Source: Pseudomonas sp. KBW05
GTDB lineage: Bacteria > Pseudomonadota > Gammaproteobacteria > Pseudomonadales > Pseudomonadaceae
Direction of reading: 5' to 3'
Length of the DNA: 64,000 bases
Assembly: GCF_003852405.1 (NCBI RefSeq)
Contig: NZ_QAJM01000016.1
Span: 322,029-386,028, forward strand
The notes beneath the pieces are model-generated. The model had not been told where the DNA came from, made no database searches, and worked only from the letters and a program-made list of their open reading frames with translations. Positions 12,841 to 24,494 of the stretch are shown here, piece after piece. Both the position numbers and the translations under genes were made by a program. Position 1 is the first letter of the stretch, and each line of letters begins with the position of its first letter.

Positions 12841-13010
12841 AACGACAGCGTGCCCTTGTATTCCGACAAGACGGGCCAATATCTGTAATACGTCCTACAG
12901 ACCTTTCAGATTTCGTCTTACGCAAAAGCCCGAAACATTATGTCGCTAGCCACTGTCACGACACCTGTGCAACATGGCGCGCGTGCAATCCACAAATGGG
13001 AATTCCCTTT

Positions 13011-13883
13011 ATGAAACGTTTTCTTAGCATCGCCATGGCGTTGTGCATCGGCCTGACGATGAGCCTCGACGCCAACGCCAAGCGCTTCGGTGGCGGCAAA
13101 AGTTCGGGCGCAGCACCGACTCACCAAACCAGCCAGATGGCTCCCTCCGCTGGCGGCATGGGCGGTGCAGCCGCTACCGCAGGCGCGGCCGGTGCTGCTG
13201 GCGCTGCTGCCAAGGCCGGCGGTGCTTCGCGTTGGTTGGGCCCTCTGGCCGGCATCGCGGCCGGTGGCCTGCTCGCTTCCATGTTCATGGGCGGCGGCTT
13301 CCAGGGCATGCAGATCTTCGACATCCTGATCATGGCGGTCATCGCCTTTGTGATCTTCCGCTTTATCGCCGCCCGTCGCCGCAAGCAGCAGGAGCACATG
13401 GCTCCAGCCGGCGCGCCGATGCAGCGTGAAGTGTTCGAGCAAAAGCCGGCCATGGGCTCGATCTTCGGTGGTTCCGCAGCCCCTGCTGCTGCCCGCCCAG
13501 TGATCAACGCTCCGGCGTGGTTCAACGAAGAGCGTTTCGTCGAAGCGGCCCGCAGCCACTTCCAGTCCCTGCAGCAACACTGGGACGCCAACGAAATGGA
13601 CAAGATCGCCGAGTTCGTGACCCCGCAACTGCTGGAGTTCCTCAAGCGCGAACGCGCTGAACTGGGCGACGCGTTCCAGTCGACCTACATCGACGACCTG
13701 CGCGTACAACTGGAAGGCGTGGATGACCGCGCCGACAAGACTATCGCCACCCTGACCTTCAGCGGCGTGTCGAAAAACTCGCGCTTTGACCAAGGCGAAG
13801 TGTTCAGCGAAAGCTGGAACATGGAACGCCCACAAGGCGAAAACCAACCTTGGCTGGTTGCCGGTATCCGCCAGAACGGCTGA
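13011..13883 (+). CDS. Tim44-like domain membrane protein
   Basis: A 290-residue protein with a signal peptide ending near DANA (residues 1-22) and a Gly/Ala-rich linker. Two hydrophobic segments follow at about 75-120 (LLASMFMGGGF; DILIMAVIAFVIFRFIAARR). The C-terminal Tim44-like domain from about 165 begins FNEERFVEAARSHFQSLQQHWD and includes FVTPQLLEFLKRE. Bacterial Tim44-like proteins are membrane proteins of unknown role; no import function should be inferred. ATG 13011 (MKRFLSIAMALCIG) is chosen because it starts the signal peptide; the frame is open further upstream through the REP element. A strong terminator follows. Confidence 0.82.
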   Translation: MKRFLSIAMALCIGLTMSLDANAKRFGGGKSSGAAPTHQTSQMAPSAGGMGGAAATAGAAGAAGAAAKAGGASRWLGPLAGIAAGGLLASMFMGGGFQGMQIFDILIMAVIAFVIFRFIAARRRKQQEHMAPAGAPMQREVFEQKPAMGSIFGGSAAPAAARPVINAPAWFNEERFVEAARSHFQSLQQHWDANEMDKIAEFVTPQLLEFLKRERAELGDAFQSTYIDDLRVQLEGVDDRADKTIATLTFSGVSKNSRFDQGEVFSESWNMERPQGENQPWLVAGIRQNG

Positions 13884-13913
13884 TCACCTGGCGCCTTGAG
13901 CGCGCAGTAAACG

Positions 13914-13955
13914 ACCCCGGCGGTGTAGTGAAATACACCGCCGGGGTCTTTTTTT
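13914..13955 (+). terminator. Strong rho-independent terminator
   Basis: A perfect 13-bp stem (CCCCGGCGGTGTA/TACACCGCCGGGG) with a 6-nt loop is followed by TCTTTTTTT. It closes the Tim44-like gene and isolates the downstream iron-regulated cluster. Confidence 0.92.
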
Positions 13956-13989
13956 GCCTGTCAGAAATGCTTTGTTGTTTTTACTGGAT

Positions 13990-14010
13990 TAATGAGAAAC
14001 ATTCTCACTA
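13990..14010. promoter_or_regulatory. Fur box upstream of the ECF sigma gene
   Basis: TAATGAGAAACATTCTCACTA contains perfect TGAGAA-aca-TTCTCA arms (13993-14007), matching the AATGAGAAT-type Fur sites of Pseudomonas. It lies 48 bp upstream of the sigma-factor start. This implies iron-repressed expression of the whole signalling cluster. Confidence 0.8.
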
Positions 14011-14057
14011 TACTCGTGCCCTCTCCCGGTTCTGCCCGAGCATAGGAACGTGCCGCC

Positions 14058-14555
14058 GTGCTGGAAAAACTCTTCAATCAACATGCATCCGCCCTGCATC
14101 GTTACCTGTTGCGGAAGAAATGCACCCCCAGCCTTGCCTCGGACCTGGTGCAGGACACGTTCCTGCGCATCGCCCAGCTGGAGAACATGGAACGCATCCT
14201 GTGCGCGCCGTCGTACCTGTTTCGCGTCGCGCACAACCTCATGATCGACCACCATCGACGCTACGGTGAAAAGCGCTTCGACAGCGACGCAGCCGCCTAT
14301 TTCGACACTCTGGTGGACGAAGCCAGCGGCCCGGAAGAGCAAGCGCTCGACGCCCTGGCCCTGGAGCAGTTGGAAAGCCTGCTGGAACGCATGCCAGAGC
14401 GCACCCGCGATATTTTCATGCTGTGCCGGGTGGAAGGCATGACGCACAAAGAGACCGCCCGCTATTTACGGATATCCACAAGCTCTGTACAAAAACACAT
14501 GGCGATGGCGCTGGCCAAGATTGGCAAGGCGCTTGATCCAGACCAAGAGGGCTAG
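14058..14555 (+). CDS. FecI/HasI-type ECF sigma factor
   Basis: The 165-residue iron-starvation sigma factor has region 2 (LVQDTFLRIAQLENMERIL then SYLFRVAHNLMIDHHRR) and region 4 (ERMPERTRDIFMLCRVEGMT, then HKETARYLRISTSSVQKHM). It should be released by the adjacent anti-sigma factor when the receptor binds its ligand, and then transcribe the receptor/cargo genes. GTG 14058 is the start, with GGAACG upstream. A Fur box lies just upstream and a FecR gene 43 bp downstream. By position it corresponds to HasI of Has haem-uptake loci. Confidence 0.9.
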   Translation: MLEKLFNQHASALHRYLLRKKCTPSLASDLVQDTFLRIAQLENMERILCAPSYLFRVAHNLMIDHHRRYGEKRFDSDAAAYFDTLVDEASGPEEQALDALALEQLESLLERMPERTRDIFMLCRVEGMTHKETARYLRISTSSVQKHMAMALAKIGKALDPDQEG

Positions 14556-14598
14556 ACCTTGGGTATCTTGAAAAGCAAGAAGGTAAACAGTCAGAACC

Positions 14599-15573
14599 GT
14601 GAATGCTCCCCCACAAACGACCGACCCGTTGGAGCGCAAAGCTGCCGATTGGGTGATGCGTCATCGACAAGGCCAGCTGTCGGCGCGTGAGCTAGAAGCT
14701 TTTCAGCGTTGGCAGGAAGCCGACCCCAGGCATGCCGCCGCCGCCGGCCGGGCTGACCGTGCCTGGCGCGCCACCGCCTCGCTCAAACGCCACCCCGGCT
14801 ATGTAAAACCGCAACGCCCGCCGCGCACGCTCTGGACCCGCAATACCTGCGCCAGCGCCATCGGTGCTGCCGCGCTGGGCTGCTGGATGCTGCTCGCGCC
14901 GCCCTTCTGGCTGCAAGCGCTGAACAGCGACTATCACACCGGCTTTGGCGAAGTTCGCCACATTACCCTGGCAGATGGCAGCCAGGTTGAACTGGGCAGC
15001 CACAGCATCCTGAACGTCGCCTATGACGAGCAAACTCGCCTGGTCAACCTGAGCCAGGGCGAAGCGGTGTTCACCCCATCGCCGATCAATGATCAGGAGC
15101 GCCGCCCTTTTACCGTGCGCGCGCCCGGCGCCGACATCACTGCACGCGGCACACGCTATCTGGTCGGTGTCGGTCAGGATCGCGAAGGCTGGGTCGGGGT
15201 TTTGCAGCACAAGGTCGAGGTCAACCTGACGCCCGCCCAGCGCGATGATGCGGCCGGCTCCGCCCTGCTGGAGCAAGGCAACAGCCTGCGCTTCAGCCCC
15301 AAGACCGGCTTGGTGCCGCTCACCACGCGCCCGGATGAACTGGCCAGTTGGCAGGAAGGTCGCCTGGTGTTCCAACGCGAACCGCTGGGCGAAGCGGTGG
15401 CGCGCATCAATCGCTACCGACCGGGGCTGGTCGTGGTCAAAGGCGACACATTGAGTGCGGTGCGCATCAGCGCGGTGATGCGTCTGGACAATCTCGACGA
15501 CGCCCTCAAACACCTCGCACAGCAAGCCCACGGGCGCATTCTCGACCTGCCTGGACTCACGCTGATCTACTGA
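14599..15573 (+). CDS. FecR/HasS-type anti-sigma factor
   Basis: A 324-residue single-pass regulator. Residues ~1-55 are the cytoplasmic DUF4880 sigma-binding domain (AADWVMRHRQGQLSARELEAF form). The membrane helix lies at ~80-100 (TCASAIGAAALGCWMLLAPP). The periplasmic FecR domain covers ~115-230 (LADGSQVELGSHSILNVAYD). A C-terminal DUF4974/STN-contact domain follows (~255-324). It transmits the receptor signal across the inner membrane. Start GTG 14599 has only a distant AAGAAGG; no ATG fits. It is co-transcribed with the sigma gene and closed by a terminator. Confidence 0.9.
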   Translation: MNAPPQTTDPLERKAADWVMRHRQGQLSARELEAFQRWQEADPRHAAAAGRADRAWRATASLKRHPGYVKPQRPPRTLWTRNTCASAIGAAALGCWMLLAPPFWLQALNSDYHTGFGEVRHITLADGSQVELGSHSILNVAYDEQTRLVNLSQGEAVFTPSPINDQERRPFTVRAPGADITARGTRYLVGVGQDREGWVGVLQHKVEVNLTPAQRDDAAGSALLEQGNSLRFSPKTGLVPLTTRPDELASWQEGRLVFQREPLGEAVARINRYRPGLVVVKGDTLSAVRISAVMRLDNLDDALKHLAQQAHGRILDLPGLTLIY

Positions 15574-15596
15574 AAGGCCCCGCCTGCGGGCCTTTT
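15573..15596 (+). terminator. Rho-independent terminator after the anti-sigma gene
   Basis: AAAGGCCC at 15573-15580 pairs with GGGCCTTT (15588-15595) around a 7-nt loop, and the stem is followed by T and AA. It separates the sigma/anti-sigma pair from the receptor operon, so the receptor needs its own (presumably sigma-dependent) promoter. Confidence 0.75.
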
Positions 15597-15624
15597 AACA
15601 TCATGAATATATAAAACAAGATAC

Positions 15625-15643
15625 ATAGATCATAACGATCTAT
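15625..15643. promoter_or_regulatory. Inverted repeat upstream of the TonB receptor
   Basis: ATAGATC-ATAAC-GATCTAT has perfect 7-bp arms in an AT-rich stretch 75-93 bp before the receptor start. It lies where the promoter recognised by the adjacent ECF sigma factor would be expected. No -35/-10 pair is assigned with confidence. Confidence 0.35.
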
Positions 15644-15717
15644 CGCGTTTTTGCTGCTGCTGCGTTTCTACTACATGTGAATAACTCTTATTTGCTTTAG
15701 TGAGGCCGGTTTTGCAG

Positions 15718-18700
15718 ATGCAACAGAACAACAAGAAGCGCAAGGCAGCAAATCGCACGCGACTGAGCCTGGGCATCCAGCTCGCCGTGTTCGCGCTGGC
15801 CGCCGACGCCGCCGCCATCAACCCGGTGCAAACCCGCCCGGTCAGCAGCGCTGCACAGGTGCAACCCCAAGGTGCTTACCACGACTTCGACGTACCCGCC
15901 CTGTCGCTGGACGAAGGCCTGGTGCTGCTGGCGCGCCAGGCGGGTGTCGAGGTCTACCTGGGCAGCAATGACCTCACCGGCACCTACGGCAACCCGGTCA
16001 AGGGCCGCCTGTCCCTGGAAGCTGCGCTGCAACAACTGCTCGCCAACCAGGCGCTGACCTACAGCCTGGGCAGCCAGCCCGAGCGGCCGATCATCCAGGT
16101 GCAACCCGCGCCGGGCATGAGCGGCATCCAGCAAGGCGACCTGCACCCGATCTACGTGCATGGCCTGGACGGCAAAGAGTCGCGCGACGAAAAGGGCTAC
16201 AACGACATCTACGATCTGGACGTGTCCTCCGTGTATTCCGGCAAGGAACAGATCGAACGCTACAAAGGCGCCGCCCCCGCCGACATGTTCAAGGGCATGC
16301 TCAACGTCTACAGCGGTGACGGCCGCAACAGCGGCGCGCTCGACCCCAACGTGCGCGGCATCCAGGGCCCCGGCCGGGTGCCGCTGACCATCGACGGCAC
16401 CGAACAGGCGCTGACGGTGTATCGCGGCTACATGGGCGCCAACAACCGTAACTACATCGACCCCAACCTGATCGGCAGCATCAAGGTGCTCAAGGGACCG
16501 AACCTGGAGCGCAACGTCTATAGCGGCGTGGGCGGCGCGGTGGTCGCCAACACCTTGAACGTGGATGACATCCTCAAGGAAGGCCAGGAGTTCGGCGGCG
16601 AGCTGAAGATGGAAGGCAGTAACAACTCGGTGTCGCCCAAGTTGCCGCACTTGATGACCGGCCAAAGCCCGCCCGCCGACTATCAATACATCCCCATTAA
16701 TTCCTACTACGACCCGTCGCTGTACAAGCACCCGCGCACCAGCCGCGACAACAGCCTGATCACCGGCGGCGACTCGGCCTACCGCCTGGCCCTCGGCACC
16801 CGCCAGGAAAAATTCGAACTGCTCGCCGCCTACGCCTACCGCGAAAAGGGCAACCACTACGCGGGCAAGAACAAGAGCGGGTTCTACGCCACCGGCAAAC
16901 AGGTCAATGGCCAGTTCGACTACATCCCCAACCTGGCCAACATCTATAAACCGGGGGATGAAGTGCCCAATACCTCTAGCAAGATGGAGTCGTGGCTAGC
17001 CAAGGCCAAGCTGAAGATCGACGACGACCAATCCCTGGAGTTCGGCTACCGCGACACGGATTCGCTGTACGGCGAAATCCTGCCGTCACGCATTTCGTTC
17101 TTCCGCCCCGGCGACCAGTACGACGCCGCATCCAGCGGCGTACCGCAGTGGCCGCTAAGTCATGTGCAGAGCAAAGCCTACAACCTGGAATACAACCTCA
17201 AGCCCGAAGGCAACCCGTGGGTGGATTTCTATTCCAACCTCTGGGCCACCAATACCCAAAGCGACACCTATACCAGTGGCGGTGTGCCCAACTCCACCAG
17301 CATGGCCAACCCGGCATTCAGAAATACAGCCGTGGCCAACGCGCAACATGACCGGGCCGGCGTGACCCTCAGCAACAAGTTCAAGATGCTGGATAGCCTG
17401 GACCTCACGTTAGGCGCCAGTTACCAGCACGAAAAGTTAAGCTCGAAGGACGACTACTACGACCCCATTATCTTCGACCTCTTGCGCATGAACCCGCGCG
17501 CTGGGCGCCGGGACGAAAGGGAGTACAACTTCAACTTCGATTGGCGGCCGGTCAGTTTTGTCAAATTCACAGCAGGCGCGCGCTACTCGTCTTACTGGGC
17601 GTTCGATGATTATTTGAAAGAAACTCAAGACGCGTCAGGTGTGACCACCAAAGTGTATGAAACTGGAAAAAGGGTGAATTACACCACGCGCAAAATATTG
17701 ACCGACAGCGAGGTAGAGGCAGCGATTGCGCAAAAAATTGCTGAACAACAACCCACCTGGGACGCCTGGGGATTTACCGAGGAAGATAAGGCGGTTGTCA
17801 CAGAAGAGATCAGACGCACAACCACCAGCATTCAGGACACTTACAACACGGCCGACTGGGCAAGCGATGATAAAGGTCGTTTCTCACGCGCCACTGACCC
17901 CTGCATCATTGCGGCGAACTCGGGGGAAAATGTAATTGCTTGTACCACCTCGACAAACCAGCCCGTTGTAAAAGACGTCAAAGCCAAGCACCAGAAAGAC
18001 AGCGGCTGGGCGCCCAGTGCATCGGCCACGTTTTATACCTCGGAAAATGGCCGATTCTATTTGCGCTACAGCGAAGCCATCCGTTATCCAAGCATGTTTG
18101 AAAGCACCCTCGGCTTTTCAGCATCCATAAATCCCTGGGGCCTTGAGCCGGAGCATGCCTATAACTATGAAGCTGCCTACATTCACAACCTCGCGGGCTG
18201 GGGTGGAAGTGAGCGTGCGGATATCAAGCTGACCTATTACAACAACACCACCAAAAATGTGATTGAACGTGACCCCTCGCTATTCTTCAGCAACCTGGAG
18301 AAGCAGACGACCTCCGGTGTGGAACTCCAGGGACGCTACGACAACGGCGGATTCTTCACCGACCTGAGCATTGCCCATGTACTGAAAAACAGAGTCTGTG
18401 ATGAAAATTCCGCCGTCAGCATCAGCGCCAACGGCAGTACCCCAAACTGTGTGGACGATGGTTTTGTCGGGGGTTACCTAGTGAGCATGTCCCAGCCGGA
18501 ATGGTCAGCCAATCTGGGCTTGGGCGCGCGGTTCTTCAATCGCAAGCTCGAAGTCGGCGGACGCGCCATTTATTACCGCCAACACGAGAGCAAGTTTGAA
18601 AGTAACTACGCCGACAGTGCCATGGTCAGTTACTACATCAACACCCCGATGTCGTGGGACAAGATAGTGACCTATGACGCCTACGTGAACTACAAGTTGA

Positions 18701-18828
18701 CCGACGATGCATCTATCGAACTGACCGGCACCAACTTGAGCAACCTTTATTACGTCGACCCACTGACACGTTCGGCGGTGCCGGCCCCGGGTCGCACGTT
18801 AAAACTTGCATTCACAACAAACTTTTAG
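15718..18828 (+). CDS. HasR-like TonB-dependent haem/hemophore receptor with STN signalling domain
   Basis: A 1036-residue outer-membrane receptor. The order is signal peptide (1 to ~28), then an STN signalling domain (~55-110, FDVPALSLDEGLVLLARQAG) that contacts the anti-sigma factor. The plug (~150-290) contains DPNVRGIQGPGRVPLTIDGT and NNRNYIDPNLIGSIKVLKGP, which I recognise as HasR-like. A 22-strand-type barrel ends in LKLAFTTNF. It should import haem, or haem from a carrier, with TonB energy. ATG 15718 is preferred; GTG 15700 is an in-frame alternative. From about 17.6 to 18.4 kb base composition is visibly more AT-rich than the 5' half, suggesting a recombined barrel. No hasA or type I exporter follows; two Slam cargo genes do. 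Confidence 0.87.
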   Translation: MQQNNKKRKAANRTRLSLGIQLAVFALAADAAAINPVQTRPVSSAAQVQPQGAYHDFDVPALSLDEGLVLLARQAGVEVYLGSNDLTGTYGNPVKGRLSLEAALQQLLANQALTYSLGSQPERPIIQVQPAPGMSGIQQGDLHPIYVHGLDGKESRDEKGYNDIYDLDVSSVYSGKEQIERYKGAAPADMFKGMLNVYSGDGRNSGALDPNVRGIQGPGRVPLTIDGTEQALTVYRGYMGANNRNYIDPNLIGSIKVLKGPNLERNVYSGVGGAVVANTLNVDDILKEGQEFGGELKMEGSNNSVSPKLPHLMTGQSPPADYQYIPINSYYDPSLYKHPRTSRDNSLITGGDSAYRLALGTRQEKFELLAAYAYREKGNHYAGKNKSGFYATGKQVNGQFDYIPNLANIYKPGDEVPNTSSKMESWLAKAKLKIDDDQSLEFGYRDTDSLYGEILPSRISFFRPGDQYDAASSGVPQWPLSHVQSKAYNLEYNLKPEGNPWVDFYSNLWATNTQSDTYTSGGVPNSTSMANPAFRNTAVANAQHDRAGVTLSNKFKMLDSLDLTLGASYQHEKLSSKDDYYDPIIFDLLRMNPRAGRRDEREYNFNFDWRPVSFVKFTAGARYSSYWAFDDYLKETQDASGVTTKVYETGKRVNYTTRKILTDSEVEAAIAQKIAEQQPTWDAWGFTEEDKAVVTEEIRRTTTSIQDTYNTADWASDDKGRFSRATDPCIIAANSGENVIACTTSTNQPVVKDVKAKHQKDSGWAPSASATFYTSENGRFYLRYSEAIRYPSMFESTLGFSASINPWGLEPEHAYNYEAAYIHNLAGWGGSERADIKLTYYNNTTKNVIERDPSLFFSNLEKQTTSGVELQGRYDNGGFFTDLSIAHVLKNRVCDENSAVSISANGSTPNCVDDGFVGGYLVSMSQPEWSANLGLGARFFNRKLEVGGRAIYYRQHESKFESNYADSAMVSYYINTPMSWDKIVTYDAYVNYKLTDDASIELTGTNLSNLYYVDPLTRSAVPAPGRTLKLAFTTNF

Positions 18829-18902
18829 CCATCAGTCAATGCCGAGCTGTTGCACCGCTCGCGAAAACGGAAGTTTATGAACTTCATCAGTCAGGGAATG
18901 AG

Positions 18903-19652
18903 ATGAAACTTTTAACTGTGGCAACTCTGTCAATTGGATTGCTTGGACTCAGTGACATGATTCGGGCGGAAAACGCTTCCGGCCAAAGCTATTACGGCAC
19001 CATCAACGTCGGTTACACGCATGCCTATGGGCCACCTGGATATCCCAGCGTGCCGGGCCAACCCAGCATTGTATTGGTGAGCCCTTTCAATACGACGCCA
19101 ATCGCCTTCAACGCCCTGAAGAACATGATTCTGCCCGACACAAATGGGGTCACAAGCTTGTCATCACTGCCACCCCCTGCAATGGGCAGCTTTGATTTCA
19201 AAACCATTGCAAGCCAGCAAGTGTACTTCGGTGAATGGTCGAACAGCGGCGCCGATAATGACCCCACCCGAGTCGTGTATTACAGCGGTGAAACTACCGG
19301 CCGAGTGTTGCCAAGCACCAACGTCACCTACGCCGTTCAAGGTATTAACAACTACTCAGGTACCAACCTGCTCACAGGTGAACTGACTGCAAGTTTCGGT
19401 ACCGCGGCGCCTGCGCTGACGGGAACACTGAGTAACAACAGTCTTAAAATACAGTTATCTGCCCCTATTTCCACGGCAGATACCAGCTTCAGCGGCTATG
19501 CCATCGTTCGTAACGCCAGCACCCAATCACTGCTCTCATCGGGGACGACGCAAGGCAGCTTCTTCGGTGCCGGCACCACCGCATCTATCGCCGGCATCAC
19601 TAAGTTTACCAATCGAAATTACGACACCGCGTTTGGTGGAGTCGTTAAGTAA
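18903..19652 (+). CDS. Hemophilin-like Slam-dependent secreted protein, copy 1
   Basis: A 249-residue exported protein. The signal peptide ends near IRA at residue 22 with no lipobox Cys, so it is predicted soluble rather than a surface lipoprotein. An N-terminal handle (~25-85) contains YTHAYGPPGYP. The C-terminal ~120 residues end with GSFFGAGTTASIAGITKFTN and YDTAFGGVVK, the FxGxxA-LAG...YDxxFGGxK pattern of TbpB-like/hemophilin barrels that are Slam cargo. The likely job is to capture haem outside the cell and hand it to the upstream receptor. AGGGA lies 6 bp before ATG 18903. The gene follows the receptor by 74 bp, is more AT-rich than copy 2, and shares long identical blocks with it. 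Confidence 0.75.
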   Translation: MKLLTVATLSIGLLGLSDMIRAENASGQSYYGTINVGYTHAYGPPGYPSVPGQPSIVLVSPFNTTPIAFNALKNMILPDTNGVTSLSSLPPPAMGSFDFKTIASQQVYFGEWSNSGADNDPTRVVYYSGETTGRVLPSTNVTYAVQGINNYSGTNLLTGELTASFGTAAPALTGTLSNNSLKIQLSAPISTADTSFSGYAIVRNASTQSLLSSGTTQGSFFGAGTTASIAGITKFTNRNYDTAFGGVVK

Positions 19653-19780
19653 CCCGCAACGCTAACTTAATCCAACTTACAACTACGTTCTAACGTGTGA
19701 GGTGTTCCATGGGAGGCTAAAGAAAACTTGGCAGATGCTTGACGTGTTGACTTAATTAAAATCACTCAATGGATGATGAA

Positions 19781-20542
19781 ATGAAAACTTTCAACTACAC
19801 AGTATTGGCAGTGGCTCTTCTTGGTTTGGCTGGCGTTGCTCAAGCAGATACTTCTTCTGGCCAAAGCTATACCGGCACTATCGTCGTGGAAGGCTCCAGC
19901 GGCACGGGTTCTACCAATCACCCGGGCACTGCTGGCCAACCGTCCGTAGGCGTGCTGGCGTTTTACGGCGGTGCAAAAGTGGGCTTCAGCGGTCTCAAAG
20001 GCATGGTCGCCACTGACGCCAATGGCGTCACCACCATTACCCCGGCCATGATGCCAGCCTCCCACGCCGCGCTGGGTAACTTTGACTTCAAGCAAGTCGC
20101 CAGCCAGCAGGTCTACTACGGCGAGTGGTCGCAGAACGGCACCAACAACGACCCGACTCGCGTTGTGTACTACTCCGGTGACAACACCGGCCGTGTACTG
20201 CCAACGACCAGCGTGACCTACGCGGTACAGGGCATCAACAACTACTCCGGGGCTAACGTTCTTGCCGGTGACTTGACCGCCACCTTCGGCACTGCCGCGC
20301 CAACCTTGACCGGCTCTATTGCCAACAGCACCCTGCGAGTCGGCGTGAACGCCAACATCAGCACCAGCGATGCCAGCTTCGCGGGCAGCGCCACAGCGCG
20401 CAATGCCGCAACCAATGCGTTGCTGTCCACCGGTACGACCAATGGCAACTTCTACGGCGCAGGCTCTACCGCGTCGCTGGCCGGTATCACCAAGTTCACC
20501 AACCGCGACTACGACACCGCTTTCGGCGGCGTAGCCAAGTAA
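19781..20542 (+). CDS. Hemophilin-like Slam-dependent secreted protein, copy 2
   Basis: A 253-residue paralogue of the preceding gene. The signal peptide is MKTFNYTVLAVALLGLAGVAQA and again lacks a lipobox. Shared blocks include NNDPTRVVYYSG, VTYAVQGINNYSG and the C-terminal TASLAGITKFTNRDYDTAFGG. The N-terminal handle differs (GSTNHPGTAGQPSVGVLAFYGG), so haem contacts or partner choice may differ. ATG 19781 is preferred over 19769 because GGATGA then becomes the Shine-Dalgarno. Base composition is GC-rich like the host genome. The 128-bp gap before it has no clear terminator; a separate promoter there cannot be excluded. A long hairpin follows it. Confidence 0.75.
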   Translation: MKTFNYTVLAVALLGLAGVAQADTSSGQSYTGTIVVEGSSGTGSTNHPGTAGQPSVGVLAFYGGAKVGFSGLKGMVATDANGVTTITPAMMPASHAALGNFDFKQVASQQVYYGEWSQNGTNNDPTRVVYYSGDNTGRVLPTTSVTYAVQGINNYSGANVLAGDLTATFGTAAPTLTGSIANSTLRVGVNANISTSDASFAGSATARNAATNALLSTGTTNGNFYGAGSTASLAGITKFTNRDYDTAFGGVAK

Positions 20543-20570
20543 CAGCGGCTTGAACTGACGTAGCACCACC

Positions 20571-20601
20571 AAGCAAGTGCCTGGCCTCCAGGCACTTGCT
20601 T
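20571..20601 (+). terminator. Strong intercistronic hairpin between cargo and Slam genes
   Basis: Perfect 14-bp arms AAGCAAGTGCCTGG and CCAGGCACTTGCTT around CCT are followed by TTGGCGTTTT. The tail is an interrupted T run, so partial termination or 3'-end protection is likely. It sits 33 bp before the Slam start. The expected result is abundant cargo mRNA and less translocon mRNA. Confidence 0.7.
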
Positions 20602-20634
20602 TTGGCGTTTTGAAGCGATCCCGAGAGCCCGGTA

Positions 20635-22134
20635 ATGCCCCAGCCCTACTGCAAGCGATCCCTCACGTTGCATGTGTTGCCCCTTTCCCTGCTGCTGTTC
20701 ATGGCCCCGACGGTGTTCGCCGCCGACCAGGACACCAGCCTGCGTCTGAACCAGAGCATCGAGTACCGCGCCAACAAGCAAGAGCGCGAGTTGCTCAAGG
20801 ATGAACTGCCGAGTGACGGTGCCGCGCCGTCGCTGACCATCGACGGCCAGACCTACACCGTCGGCAACAACCTCGACGAGTTGGGCCGCGCGGTGTACCT
20901 GAGCGTCGAGCGCCAGCAATGGCCAAACGCCCGCGACTACCTCAAGCGCTACACCGCCCTGCCCGGCCACGACCCGATGCTCACCGCCTACGCCAACGGC
21001 GGCTTGGCCCGTGCCGATGGCGACCTGGACAGCGCCGAACGTTATTACCAGGACCTGCTGGCCATCCAGCCCGACTTCCTGCCCGGGCGCCTGGAACTGG
21101 CGCGGGTGCAGTTCGAGAACCGCAAGGACCGCGACTCCAAGGCCGTGTTCGAAAAAATCAGCAGCAGCCTCAGCCCGTCGGACGCCCAGGCCATGGGGCT
21201 GGGCAAGACCGTCGACAGTTTTATCCAGGCCCTCGACCATCGCGAAGACTGGCAAGGCTCGTTCGCCATCGGCCCGACCTGGAGCGACAACCTCAACCAG
21301 TCGTCCGAAGGCAGCGTGACTTACCGCTACCAGACCGCTGAAGAAACCTACGTGGTCAAGCAATCCCTGCCCAAGGCCGTGTCGGCCCACGGCCAGGATT
21401 ACGAGGCCACGCTCAACAAACGCATCGCCATCAGCGGCCATCACGGGCTGTTCGTGCGCTCGCTGTTGTACGGCCAAGCGTACGAAAAAGAGAGCAAGTA
21501 CAACGAATCCACCGTGATCAACAACGCCGGCTACAGCTACCACGATGCGCGCAACCAGTACGCCTTCGGGCCGTCGTACGAGTTCAACACCATTGGCGAC
21601 AACGCCATGTACAGCGCCTGGGGCCTGCGCGGCGAGTGGATTCACACGCTGTCGGCCACACGCATGTTCAAGCTCGAAGGCGAGTACAAGGACATGACGT
21701 ACAAACACCAGATCAACAGCAACCTCGACGGCGGTATCAGCTCGGTCTACGCCACCCTGTGGCAAGTATTGCCCCGGCAGTGGACGCTGTTCGGCGGCGT
21801 CGACATTACCGAGCGCAACGCCCGCGACCGCGTCGCCGCGTACCTGCAAAAAGGTGTGCGTCTGGGCGTCGCCAAGGATTTCGACATCGGCGTGAGCGCC
21901 GTGCTGTTCGCCTCGTACCGCAAGCGTCAATACGATGCCTACAGCGCAATCGTCGATGGCCGACGCAATGAGGATGAGCAAGGCTACACCTTCATCCTGC
22001 GTGCCCCACGGTTGGCGGTGTACGACGTGGTGCCCAGCCTTACGGTCAAATACAACAAGGTGCAGAGCAACATCGACTGGATTTATTCCTACGACAAAAA
22101 CAGCATCAGCCTAAAACTGGAGAAACAGTTCTAG
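20635..22134 (+). CDS. Slam (surface lipoprotein assembly modifier)/type XI secretion outer-membrane translocon, DUF560
   Basis: A 499-residue outer-membrane protein. The signal peptide ends at TVFA (~residue 29). A periplasmic TPR domain spans ~55-195 (YLSVERQQWPNARDYLKRYT, ANGGLARADGDLDSAERYYQ, FLPGRLELARVQFENRKDRD). The DUF560 barrel runs from ~200 to the terminal Phe (SLKLEKQF), with strands such as WQGSFAIGPTWSDNLNQSS and RQWTLFGGVDITERNARDR. Slam proteins move TbpB-like lipoproteins or soluble hemophilins across the outer membrane. Both preceding genes have the matching cargo barrel, so they are the probable substrates. Shine-Dalgarno before ATG 20635 is weak (GAGAG), in line with low-level translocon synthesis. 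Confidence 0.85.
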   Translation: MPQPYCKRSLTLHVLPLSLLLFMAPTVFAADQDTSLRLNQSIEYRANKQERELLKDELPSDGAAPSLTIDGQTYTVGNNLDELGRAVYLSVERQQWPNARDYLKRYTALPGHDPMLTAYANGGLARADGDLDSAERYYQDLLAIQPDFLPGRLELARVQFENRKDRDSKAVFEKISSSLSPSDAQAMGLGKTVDSFIQALDHREDWQGSFAIGPTWSDNLNQSSEGSVTYRYQTAEETYVVKQSLPKAVSAHGQDYEATLNKRIAISGHHGLFVRSLLYGQAYEKESKYNESTVINNAGYSYHDARNQYAFGPSYEFNTIGDNAMYSAWGLRGEWIHTLSATRMFKLEGEYKDMTYKHQINSNLDGGISSVYATLWQVLPRQWTLFGGVDITERNARDRVAAYLQKGVRLGVAKDFDIGVSAVLFASYRKRQYDAYSAIVDGRRNEDEQGYTFILRAPRLAVYDVVPSLTVKYNKVQSNIDWIYSYDKNSISLKLEKQF

Positions 22135-22184
22135 TCCGCCGCTGTCACAGGGATTGTGCTTGCGCTGAGATATCTATTTCACGG

Positions 22185-22212
22185 TTGCACTTATAGCGAG
22201 CTACTGTATAAA
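22185..22212 (+). promoter_or_regulatory. Sigma-70-type promoter for the SUKH gene
   Basis: TTGCAC (22185-22190) and TATAAA (22207-22212) are separated by 16 bp, 42 bp upstream of the GTG start. A good match to housekeeping promoters; not otherwise tested. Confidence 0.45.
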
Positions 22213-22253
22213 ACGCCCCTATAAACCGCGCCATCAGCAAGAGGATCCCGGCC

Positions 22254-22661
22254 GTGGAAGAAATCATCGAACAATTGCGTGAAGCCAACGAACCGGTCCC
22301 GGTTCCTTTGGAGCTGCCTGACGAAGACCAACTGGTGGAAATCGAAGAACAACTGTTCATCGACATCCCGTTTGTCTTCCGTGAGTTCCTGCTGACCGTC
22401 AGCGACGTGGTCTACGGCAGCCTGGAGCCGGTGACCGTCACCGACCCGCAGTCCCACACCTACCTGCCGGACGTGGCCGCCAACGCCTGGGATGCCGGCG
22501 TTGATCGCAGCATGATCCCGATCTGCCAGGACGGTGACGACTACTACTGCGTCGAAGAAGACGGCACCGTGGTGCTGTGGTCCGGCGAAGAAGAGCTGGT
22601 CACCGAAGAAACCTGGGAATCGGTGTGGCACTGGGCGCGGGACGTCTGGCTGGAAAGCTGA
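22254..22661 (+). CDS. SMI1/KNR4 (SUKH) family protein
   Basis: A 135-residue very acidic protein with the SUKH core pattern IEEQLFIDIPFVFREFLLTV and a C-terminal W-rich tail (ESVWHWARDVW). No signal peptide or membrane segment. SUKH proteins are often immunity proteins to nuclease toxins, but no toxin or polymorphic-toxin gene is nearby. GTG 22254 has GAGG 8 bp upstream. It converges with the antiporter gene across a partial REP element. Confidence 0.78.
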   Translation: MEEIIEQLREANEPVPVPLELPDEDQLVEIEEQLFIDIPFVFREFLLTVSDVVYGSLEPVTVTDPQSHTYLPDVAANAWDAGVDRSMIPICQDGDDYYCVEEDGTVVLWSGEEELVTEETWESVWHWARDVWLES

Positions 22662-22676
22662 GTCTTGTGTGCTCTT

Positions 22677-22722
22677 GTGGCGAGGGAGCTTGCTCCCGCT
22701 GGGCTGCGCAGCAGCCCCCGAC
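22677..22722. repeat. Single REP unit
   Basis: A single GTGGCGAGGGAGCTTGCTCC unit plus the GGGCTGCGCAGCAGCCC hairpin, of the same family as the element at 12.75 kb but without the second inverted unit. It fills the 69-bp convergent gap. Confidence 0.7.
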
Positions 22723-22730
22723 ATCCGCCA

Positions 22731-24494
22731 CTAGTGCTCCGCCGTATCTTTATGGTTATCCAGCGTCTCCAACAAGGCGACCTGCATCCGCGTATGCACG
22801 CGGATGAACCAGCGCCAGAGCACGGCCGCCACCGCCGCCGTGACCACGGCAATCAGCACCAGCAACTTGTTGGTCGGCAGAATACTGGCCGACAAGGCTG
22901 CCAATAGCAGGAAGATCACCAGCAGCGACAGGATCGGGATCAGCTCCGCGATCACCCGTCGTACGCGCTGGGTATGGCGCCCGGCCATTTCCGGTTTCAC
23001 GCTCATCTCCGCCAGCAACATCGACAGCGCCTTGAGCTTGCGATACGCCGCAATCAAGAACGGCAGCGACAACAGCAACGCCCCACCCCAGATCAACGCC
23101 TTCTGCCAGCTTGGATCACTGATCCAGCCTTCCAGGTAGCCGCCGATGCGCTTTGCAAAAAAACTGCCAGTGAAGAAAATCGCCACCACCAGCGCCAGGT
23201 TCACCCCCACCTGCAGGATGATCTTGCGGATCATCGACGCCAGCATCGCGCCCTCGCCCTGGGGCTGAATGCTGCGCAGCCATTCGCCATACATGCCAAA
23301 CACTCGGCTCATGCGCTTGGGCATCACCGCCGCAATCTTCAACGACAGTGGGTCGGCGCCGCGAATCAGGTAGGGCGTGAGCAGCGTAGTGATCGCCGAA
23401 ACGGCCACTGCCACCGGATACAGGAAGTCACTGGTTACCTGCAGCGTCATCCCCAGCGCCGCGATGATGAAGGAAAACTCTCCAATCTGTGACAGCCCCA
23501 TGCCCACCCGCAGTGAGGTGCGGCCATCATTGCCGGCGATAAACGCCCCAAGGCCGCAGGACAACATCTTGCCCAGCACCACCGCCACCGTGATCACCGC
23601 AATCGGCCAGGCGTATTGCAGGAGGATCTGCGGGTCGATCATCAAGCCAATCGCCACAAAGAAGATCGCGCTGAACATGTCACGAACCGGCTCGATCAAG
23701 CGCTCGATCTTAATCAACTGGCGGGATTCGGCCATGATCGCGCCAATCAGGAACGCACCCAGCACCATGCTGTATTCCAGCTTGACCACCAGCAGGCAGA
23801 AGCCGAAACACAGGCCGAGCACAGTGATCAGCAGCATCTCGTTGCTTTCGAACTTGGCCACGTAGGCCAGCAGACGCGGCACCAGCAAGATGCCGATGAC
23901 CAGCGCGACGATCATGAACAGCGAGAGCTTGCCGACCGTGGAAAACACCTCGCCGGAGCTGACCGTGCCACTCACGGCGATGCTCGACAGCAAGGCGATG
24001 ATGCCGATGCCGAGGATATCTTCGACGATCAACACACCGAAAATCAGTTGGGCGAAGCGCTGGTTTTTCATCTTCAGGTCGTTGAGCGCCTTGACGATGA
24101 TGGTGGTGGAGGAGATCGCCAGGATCGCGCCGAGGAACAGTGAGTCCATGGTGTTCCAGTCGAACCACTGGCCGATCTCGTAGCCGATCCAGATCATCAG
24201 GATGATCTCCAGGAACGCCGCGATAAACGCCGTGGCGCCGACCTTGAACAGCTTGCGCAGGCTGAACTCCAGGCCCAGGCAGAACATCAGGAAGATCACC
24301 CCCAGCTCGGCGAGGGTCTTGATGGTGTCTTCGTCGTGGATCAGGCCGAAAGGCGGGGTGTGGGGGCCGATGATAAAGCCGGCGACGATATAGCCCAGCA
24401 CCACCGGCTGCTTGAGGCGGTGAAACAGGATGGTGACCACCCCTGCAACCAGCATGATCACGGCCAGGTCCTGGATAAAGCTGATGGCGTGCAT
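22731..24494 (-). CDS. KefB/CPA2-type monovalent cation:proton antiporter
   Basis: A 587-residue inner-membrane protein. The N-terminal ~400 residues form the Na+/H+ exchanger fold with about 12 helices (VVLGYIVAGFIIGPHTPP, MFCLGLEFSLRKL, IFGVLIVEDILGIGIIALLS). Four further C-terminal hydrophobic segments follow. The usual KefB/KefC cytosolic RCK/TrkA-N nucleotide-binding domain is absent, so glutathione-type regulation is unlikely. It probably exports K+ or Na+ for protons. ATG 24494 follows AAGGAG at 8 bp; the upstream extension lacks a ribosome site. Confidence 0.85.
   Translation of the reverse strand: MHAISFIQDLAVIMLVAGVVTILFHRLKQPVVLGYIVAGFIIGPHTPPFGLIHDEDTIKTLAELGVIFLMFCLGLEFSLRKLFKVGATAFIAAFLEIILMIWIGYEIGQWFDWNTMDSLFLGAILAISSTTIIVKALNDLKMKNQRFAQLIFGVLIVEDILGIGIIALLSSIAVSGTVSSGEVFSTVGKLSLFMIVALVIGILLVPRLLAYVAKFESNEMLLITVLGLCFGFCLLVVKLEYSMVLGAFLIGAIMAESRQLIKIERLIEPVRDMFSAIFFVAIGLMIDPQILLQYAWPIAVITVAVVLGKMLSCGLGAFIAGNDGRTSLRVGMGLSQIGEFSFIIAALGMTLQVTSDFLYPVAVAVSAITTLLTPYLIRGADPLSLKIAAVMPKRMSRVFGMYGEWLRSIQPQGEGAMLASMIRKIILQVGVNLALVVAIFFTGSFFAKRIGGYLEGWISDPSWQKALIWGGALLLSLPFLIAAYRKLKALSMLLAEMSVKPEMAGRHTQRVRRVIAELIPILSLLVIFLLLAALSASILPTNKLLVLIAVVTAAVAAVLWRWFIRVHTRMQVALLETLDNHKDTAEH

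Follow-up and report, generated by a model that had tools for sequence, protein, structure and literature searches.

Which haem-acquisition system is encoded by a gene cluster that joins a sigma factor, a TonB-dependent receptor and a Slam translocon to two haemophilin-like cargo proteins, and what might the two cargos do? We addressed this question for positions 13988–22134 of a 64,000-nucleotide stretch of Pseudomonas sp. KBW05 DNA (called the window; contig NZ_QAJM01000016.1, positions 322,029 to 386,028 of the forward strand), taken from a genome of 6.5 Mb in 69 contigs. A preliminary description had read the cluster as a Has-like haem-uptake locus in which Slam and a haemophilin-like cargo replace HasA and its type I exporter. 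Our analyses indicate that it very probably encodes haem acquisition of the haemophilin (Hph) type, like the hemO/hph cluster of Acinetobacter baumannii. The sigma-linked haemophilin arrangement is known; what is worth following is a tandem cargo without ligand histidines. The difference between the two cargos at the haem-ligand positions had escaped the preliminary description. The locus comprises six complete plus-strand genes (14058–22134):

14058..14555, plus strand: extracytoplasmic function (ECF) sigma factor of the FecI type (Pfam Sigma70_r2, Sigma70_r4_2)
14599..15573, plus strand: FecR-type anti-sigma factor or sigma regulator (Pfam FecR, DUF4880)
15700..18828, plus strand: HphR/HasR-type TonB-dependent haem receptor with an STN signalling domain (Pfam, NCBIfam, HasR match)
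18903..19652, plus strand: cargo 1, a haemophilin paralogue with a well-kept secretion barrel and no histidine at either HphA ligand position (Pfam, model, alignment)
19769..20542, plus strand: cargo 2, a haemophilin with H51 and H99 at both ligand positions (Pfam, alignment, model)
20635..22134, plus strand: Slam, the type XI outer-membrane translocon (Pfam SlipAM, TPR_Slam)

Gene content, order, domains, predicted folds and conservation were observed directly. All six frames are open and Pfam assigns each product, in the order previously proposed. The Slam protein combines a SlipAM barrel (E 7e-53) with an N-terminal TPR region (TPR_Slam, E 2e-21), as type XI translocons do. Both cargos match HphA_N and HphA_C, with E values of 6e-14 to 7e-21 for cargo 1 and of 2e-22 and 3e-22 for cargo 2, and both score above the cut-off of the NCBIfam slam_lipo model. 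Their predicted structures match solved haemophilins and display the N-terminal haem clamp and C-terminal eight-strand barrel of that family, in agreement with the barrel and translocon proposed earlier. Neither cargo contains a cysteine; they therefore cannot be lipoproteins and should be released rather than lipidated. In cargo 2, H51 and H99 align with histidines of 7re4 that, given an offset of 10 in the chain numbering, we infer to be H43 and H106 of HphA. The more likely start of this protein is the ATG at 19781 rather than that at 19769.

The receptor carries the plug and barrel of TonB-dependent receptors (Pfam), and its start is more likely the ATG at 15718 than position 15700. A TonB-dependent haem-type receptor and a Slam thus share one cluster, as in haemophilin systems. 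In addition, the ECF sigma, FecR and STN-bearing receptor genes are adjacent, as in FecIRA-type cell-surface signalling, with the STN domain of the window's receptor below the Pfam cut-off.

We compared this gene set with characterized systems; statements cited by PMC identifier refer to excerpts of the articles. The gene table of PMC10483418 lists, for the A. baumannii hemO cluster, an ECF sigma factor, an anti-sigma factor, hphR, hphA, hsmA (Slam), a TonB-related protein, a haem oxygenase and a hypothetical protein. The window has the first five of these functions in the same order but lacks the last three genes, and it has two cargos, one of them without ligand histidines, where the hemO cluster has one. 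The preliminary description held that known haemophilin loci such as that of Acinetobacter HphA have no sigma signalling; the hemO cluster contradicts this, so the novelty claimed for the combination falls, while the haem-scavenging function that it proposed is well supported by homology. HphA is secreted by Slam, binds haem through H43 and H106 and has HphR as its partner, and both Slam-dependent secretion and haem uptake were shown (PMC8560813). The Hrp locus of Xenorhabdus (TonB-HrpA-HrpB-HrpC) similarly comprises a TonB receptor, a Slam-type secretor and a haemophilin cargo but, unlike the window, no named sigma gene, the word sigma being absent from the text of PMC8406197. None of the literature titles that we retrieved describes a Pseudomonas haemophilin locus; the two main haemophilin surveys lay outside that search, so an earlier report in print is possible.

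The functions of the hemO cluster that are missing from the window may be provided elsewhere. Two haem oxygenase matches were found in the genome, both on contigs other than that of the window, and the sole TonB match on the window's contig, among seven in the genome, lies at 234 kb, outside the window. One of the two haem oxygenase matches belongs to a separate haem-type system, with sigma, FecR, STN receptor and haem oxygenase genes in a row (L065, 3437–8416; G000 contig C23). A second Slam locus (L064, 5464–11003; G000 contig C65) codes for a receptor in which no STN was found, a 278-residue cargo with a weak TbpB_B_D match and a Slam, with no sigma or FecR hit nearby.

Two other views of the locus as a whole were considered. 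The first, that of the preliminary description, is a Has locus whose HasA and type I exporter were replaced by a haemophilin and Slam. The logic of a sigma factor, an anti-sigma factor, an STN receptor and a secreted haemophore is indeed shared with Has (HasI-HasS-HasR-HasA-HasDE; PMC9249621), and HasR is the best solved relative of the receptor, its N-terminal region included, though the match is only in patches. In contrast, the receptor is 42–46% identical over >1000 residues to those of four other haemophilin loci with sigma and FecR genes. These identities point to an HphR-type protein, and we rejected a converted Has locus as the best reading on their account and on that of the patchy HasR match. 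Moreover, the same gene set is already together in Acinetobacter (PMC10483418) and in other genera, which makes such a conversion very unlikely. The window's locus is also devoid of the Has haemophore and of type I export: the six genes leave no type I exporter gene between sigma and slam, the remainder of the genome not having been searched for one. HasA had no match in the window's genome, but control genomes gave none either, so that this search lacked a positive control. The Has haemophore has a fold unrelated to that of haemophilins. The other view, uptake of a ligand other than haem, such as a cobalt compound, draws on the fact that other Slam cargos serve other metals, with CrpC being named a cobalt receptor protein (PMC12282271). 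Nevertheless, cargo 2 matches solved haemophilins and has a histidine at each of the two ligand positions of HphA, and the receptor matches haem/haemoglobin families, albeit below cut-off. The case for another ligand of cargo 2 is weak, and we regard a non-haem locus as highly improbable.

We then compared the two cargos of this putative haemophilin locus. They are 71% identical in the secretion barrel and 36% identical in the haem clamp. Cargo 1 has Tyr47 at the first HphA ligand position, and the second position is deleted. With phmmer, solved haemophilins are matched only from residues 64–86 of cargo 1 onwards, so its clamp is supported by Pfam and the model rather than by phmmer. The protein has a full open frame and a signal-peptide-like start. 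Another histidine, His40, shares a loop with Tyr47; this loop is of low confidence in the model (mean predicted local distance difference test score, pLDDT, of 59 for residues 41–50). In the ligand alignment, both positions are histidines in all 19 Pseudomonas rows of the cargo 2 type, that of the window included; L047 was read from a separate alignment, the L045/L084 and L048 fragments are uninformative, and the PH-type rows of other genera have their first histidine two columns from H51.

Single-cargo loci are the rule among the haemophilin loci surveyed. P. brenneri harbours a shortened copy of cargo 1, with a large internal deletion and a tyrosine at the first ligand position. A search of 194 genomes chosen around that of P. 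brenneri revealed no intact cargo 1; the six that matched at all did so through cargos of the cargo 2 type or of other kinds, through the P. brenneri remnant or, in G027, through a weakly matching frame of 722 residues. Cargo 1 thus appears to be an uncommon part of the locus, a second haemophilin copy without the known haem-ligand histidines.

Several side observations concern other cargos. A single haemophilin-type cargo without histidine at either ligand position is encoded next to a Slam gene in P. parafulva (L047, 6052–6810; L083), where no receptor, sigma or FecR hits were found. In L045 (5852–6310; L084), the cargo is cut down to its C-terminal barrel in an otherwise complete sigma-receptor-Slam locus; the record is titled Pantoea sp. 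Ap-967, and the genome is counted in the window's genus. Finally, in L048 (5375–9821) a single Slam gene is surrounded by several cargo genes or gene fragments that have diverged, and the fetched region gave no receptor hit.

What, then, might cargo 1 do? One possibility is that it is a specialized partner, either an unloaded haemophore that aids receptor signalling or a binder of a different ligand, so that the cargos divide the work. The strong divergence of the clamp next to a conserved barrel fits this idea, as does the absence of histidines at both ligand positions, with a tyrosine at the first shared with the P. brenneri remnant. A separate tandem pair is found in a Stenotrophomonas-type locus (L116, genome G1048), which like the window has sigma, FecR, STN receptor, two tandem haemophilin and Slam genes. 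Its receptor is 44% identical to that of the window; its first cargo lacks one ligand but, unlike cargo 1, retains one of the two histidines, and its second closely matches holo-HphA of S. maltophilia (8gmm). These two cargos group together in the barrel tree (the trees were built without three L048 rows, and with L047 entered in the right frame). In Has, a haem-binding-dead HasA mutant still induces fully, the inducing state being an unloaded haemophore with haem on the receptor (PMC9249621); a second haemophilin without ligands would therefore be a natural candidate for a signalling partner. Against specialization stand the single intact cargo 1 and His40, which could act as a ligand from the same loop as Tyr47. 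Other family members also vary at the ligand positions: the haemophilin of Haemophilus haemolyticus binds haem via a single histidine (PMC8560813), so that a ligand change is no proof of lost haem binding.

Alternatively, cargo 1 may be a duplicate in decay that retains little function, as suggested by the prevalence of single-cargo loci, the large deletion in the P. brenneri copy and the loss of the clamp ligands; its intact frame, signal-peptide-like start, well-kept barrel and model close to haemophilins argue against decay. Both this idea and that of a specialized partner are held tentatively. A more specific proposal assigns haem transport to cargo 2 and sees in cargo 1 a haemophore that is naturally fixed in its unloaded form; docked on the receptor, cargo 1 would license sigma signalling when haem arrives, as unloaded HasA does in Has. 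This we consider unlikely, decay or another ligand explaining cargo 1 as well today. Were it true, the Pseudomonas and Stenotrophomonas lineages would each have evolved, separately, a tandem first cargo that loses ligands.

We next determined the distribution of such haemophilin loci. HphA_C was detected at E<=0.001 in 21 of 399 Pseudomonas genomes, including that of the window. Twenty regions were fetched, 19 from 18 genomes of the window's genus and one from another family; left out were two weakly matching genomes, G003 and G351, along with the second hits in G166 and G359. The whole set of sigma, FecR, receptor, cargo and Slam genes was found at high identity in 13 of these 20 regions, and the region from the other family (L053) has the five genes too, but at lower identity. 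Counting that of the window, at least 14 of the 399 genomes thus have the whole set, a minimum because of the matching genomes and second hits left out of the fetch. Among the 13 regions, L045 has a cargo without its N-terminal part, and the receptor of L037 matches in two frames. The regions L049–L052 have receptor, cargo and Slam genes without sigma or FecR hits, which, as for L064, means that tblastn with the window proteins gave no such hit at E<=1e-4 within ~15 kb, and L047 and L048 have cargo and Slam genes only.

Eight of the 13 complete loci are located at the same site as that of the window, flanked by uvrD/tim44-like genes on one side and SUKH/Kef genes on the other. Among the 19 relatives whose SUKH gene was retrieved with its surroundings, 13 have the tim44-like gene within ~250 bp of it, and the site is therefore empty. 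The locus of G015 is at a different place, its usual site being empty.

A scan of named genomes yielded 16 loci, several on the same contigs as in the genus sample, and 15 have the whole set, including L084 with its shortened cargo. The carriers include P. cedrina, P. viridiflava, P. proteolytica, P. gessardii, P. brenneri and P. putida NBRC 14671. In wider samples, HphA_C was present in 14 of 390 genomes at the level of the order and in 4 of 369 at that of the class, with the window's genome included each time. Fourteen regions were fetched from these samples. All five genes occur in order in L105–L107 (tblastn), and all five functions, with two cargos, in L116 (open reading frames and Pfam). 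The genes are spread, turned or incomplete in L104, L108, L109 and L111; there is no sigma or FecR hit in L112, L113 and L115; L110 is cut at the contig start; and tblastn gave a Slam hit only in L117 and no hit in L114.

The intergenic regions of the window's locus contain several putative regulatory elements:

13913..13948, plus strand: intrinsic terminator that belongs to the upstream gene and probably insulates the locus (15-pair stem followed by a T run)
13988..14006, plus strand: Fur-box-like site ending 52 bp before the sigma gene (14 of 19 consensus matches)
15574..15596, plus strand: short hairpin and T run after fecR, a possible weak terminator (folding; similar sequence visible only in the two closest relatives, L070 and L073)
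15625..15643, plus strand: palindrome ATAGATC-N5-GATCTAT upstream of the receptor gene, a candidate regulatory site (alignment of loci)
15677..15695, plus strand: conserved inverted repeat GTGAATAACTCTTATTTGC before the receptor gene, a Fur-like candidate only (alignment, by eye)
19709..19720, plus strand: conserved three-codon mini-ORF (open reading frame), ATG-Gly/Asp-Gly-stop, ahead of cargo 2 (behind a Shine-Dalgarno-like GAGGTG)
20571..20603, plus strand: conserved RNA hairpin between cargo 2 and slam, a candidate attenuator or processing site (covariation)

The Fur-like site, scored against what we take to be the Fur consensus, is the best on one scanned strand of the 64 kb window; a score of 14 was reached somewhere in 10 of 200 simulated 64 kb sequences. 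Much of the flanking sequence has diverged, but the core is conserved: GAGAA is present in all 16 aligned loci and TCTCA in 15, the exception being L078. This bears out the Fur box proposed earlier. Across the whole genome, the exact palindrome is found at a single place. The mini-ORF is present in all 15 aligned loci (L084, whose cargo has no N-terminus, being excluded), with silent third-base and stop-codon changes and Gly replaced by Asp in three; the leader before cargo 2 gave no convincing fold. Of the 13 pairs predicted for the hairpin that separates cargo 2 from slam, nine show compensatory changes, both partners being replaced and pairing retained in at least one of the 16 loci; individual pairs are disrupted in up to three of the 16. 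This hairpin could lower Slam relative to cargo and so set their ratio. Rfam gave no matches in 13000–23000. As to the terminators ascribed to the unit, there is a strong one upstream, along with the hairpins after fecR and cargo 2, but the terminator scan detected no plus-strand site directly downstream of slam.

The well-supported prediction from these genes is haem scavenging by haemophilins that Slam secretes, under the control of Fur and the sigma factor. The whole mechanism rests on homology with the Hph and Has systems, from which haem binding, secretion, signalling and all regulation are inferred. Under iron scarcity, Fur would leave its site before the sigma gene, and the sigma factor and FecR would be made. 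Sec would export both cargos, and Slam would secrete their soluble forms. Cargo 2 would take haem between its two histidines and pass it to the receptor, which would import it with TonB energy provided by genes elsewhere in the genome; haem oxygenases also encoded elsewhere would free the iron. The STN domain would relay receptor occupancy to FecR and on to the sigma factor, yielding more receptor, cargo and Slam.

Some observations weigh against parts of this scheme. The receptor scores below the cut-offs of the NCBIfam haem/haemoglobin receptor models, and its STN domain is weak when taken alone (E 0.025 with the whole protein, 0.0012 with the N-terminus, below the Pfam cut-off). Nonetheless, STN was matched at E<=0.1 in all 12 receptor N-termini scanned (the window and 11 loci; best 2e-10), in line with the STN-bearing receptor of the preliminary description. 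No sigma-dependent promoter could be named in the locus, only the conserved palindrome. Self-induction of the locus is an analogy, and a different FecIRA-like haemin operon of Stenotrophomonas showed no autoregulation, its receptor being truncated in the strain studied (PMC12772443). This operon, HemI of S. maltophilia, is a different locus, and Slam is unmentioned in the excerpts of that article.

Thus, Pseudomonas species, P. cedrina, P. gessardii and P. brenneri among them, harbour scattered examples of a sigma-linked haemophilin cluster whose workings were established in a hospital pathogen. With its tandem cargos, one of which has a clamp without the known ligands, the window's locus could show directly whether two proteins can share out the carrying and signalling roles of a haemophore.

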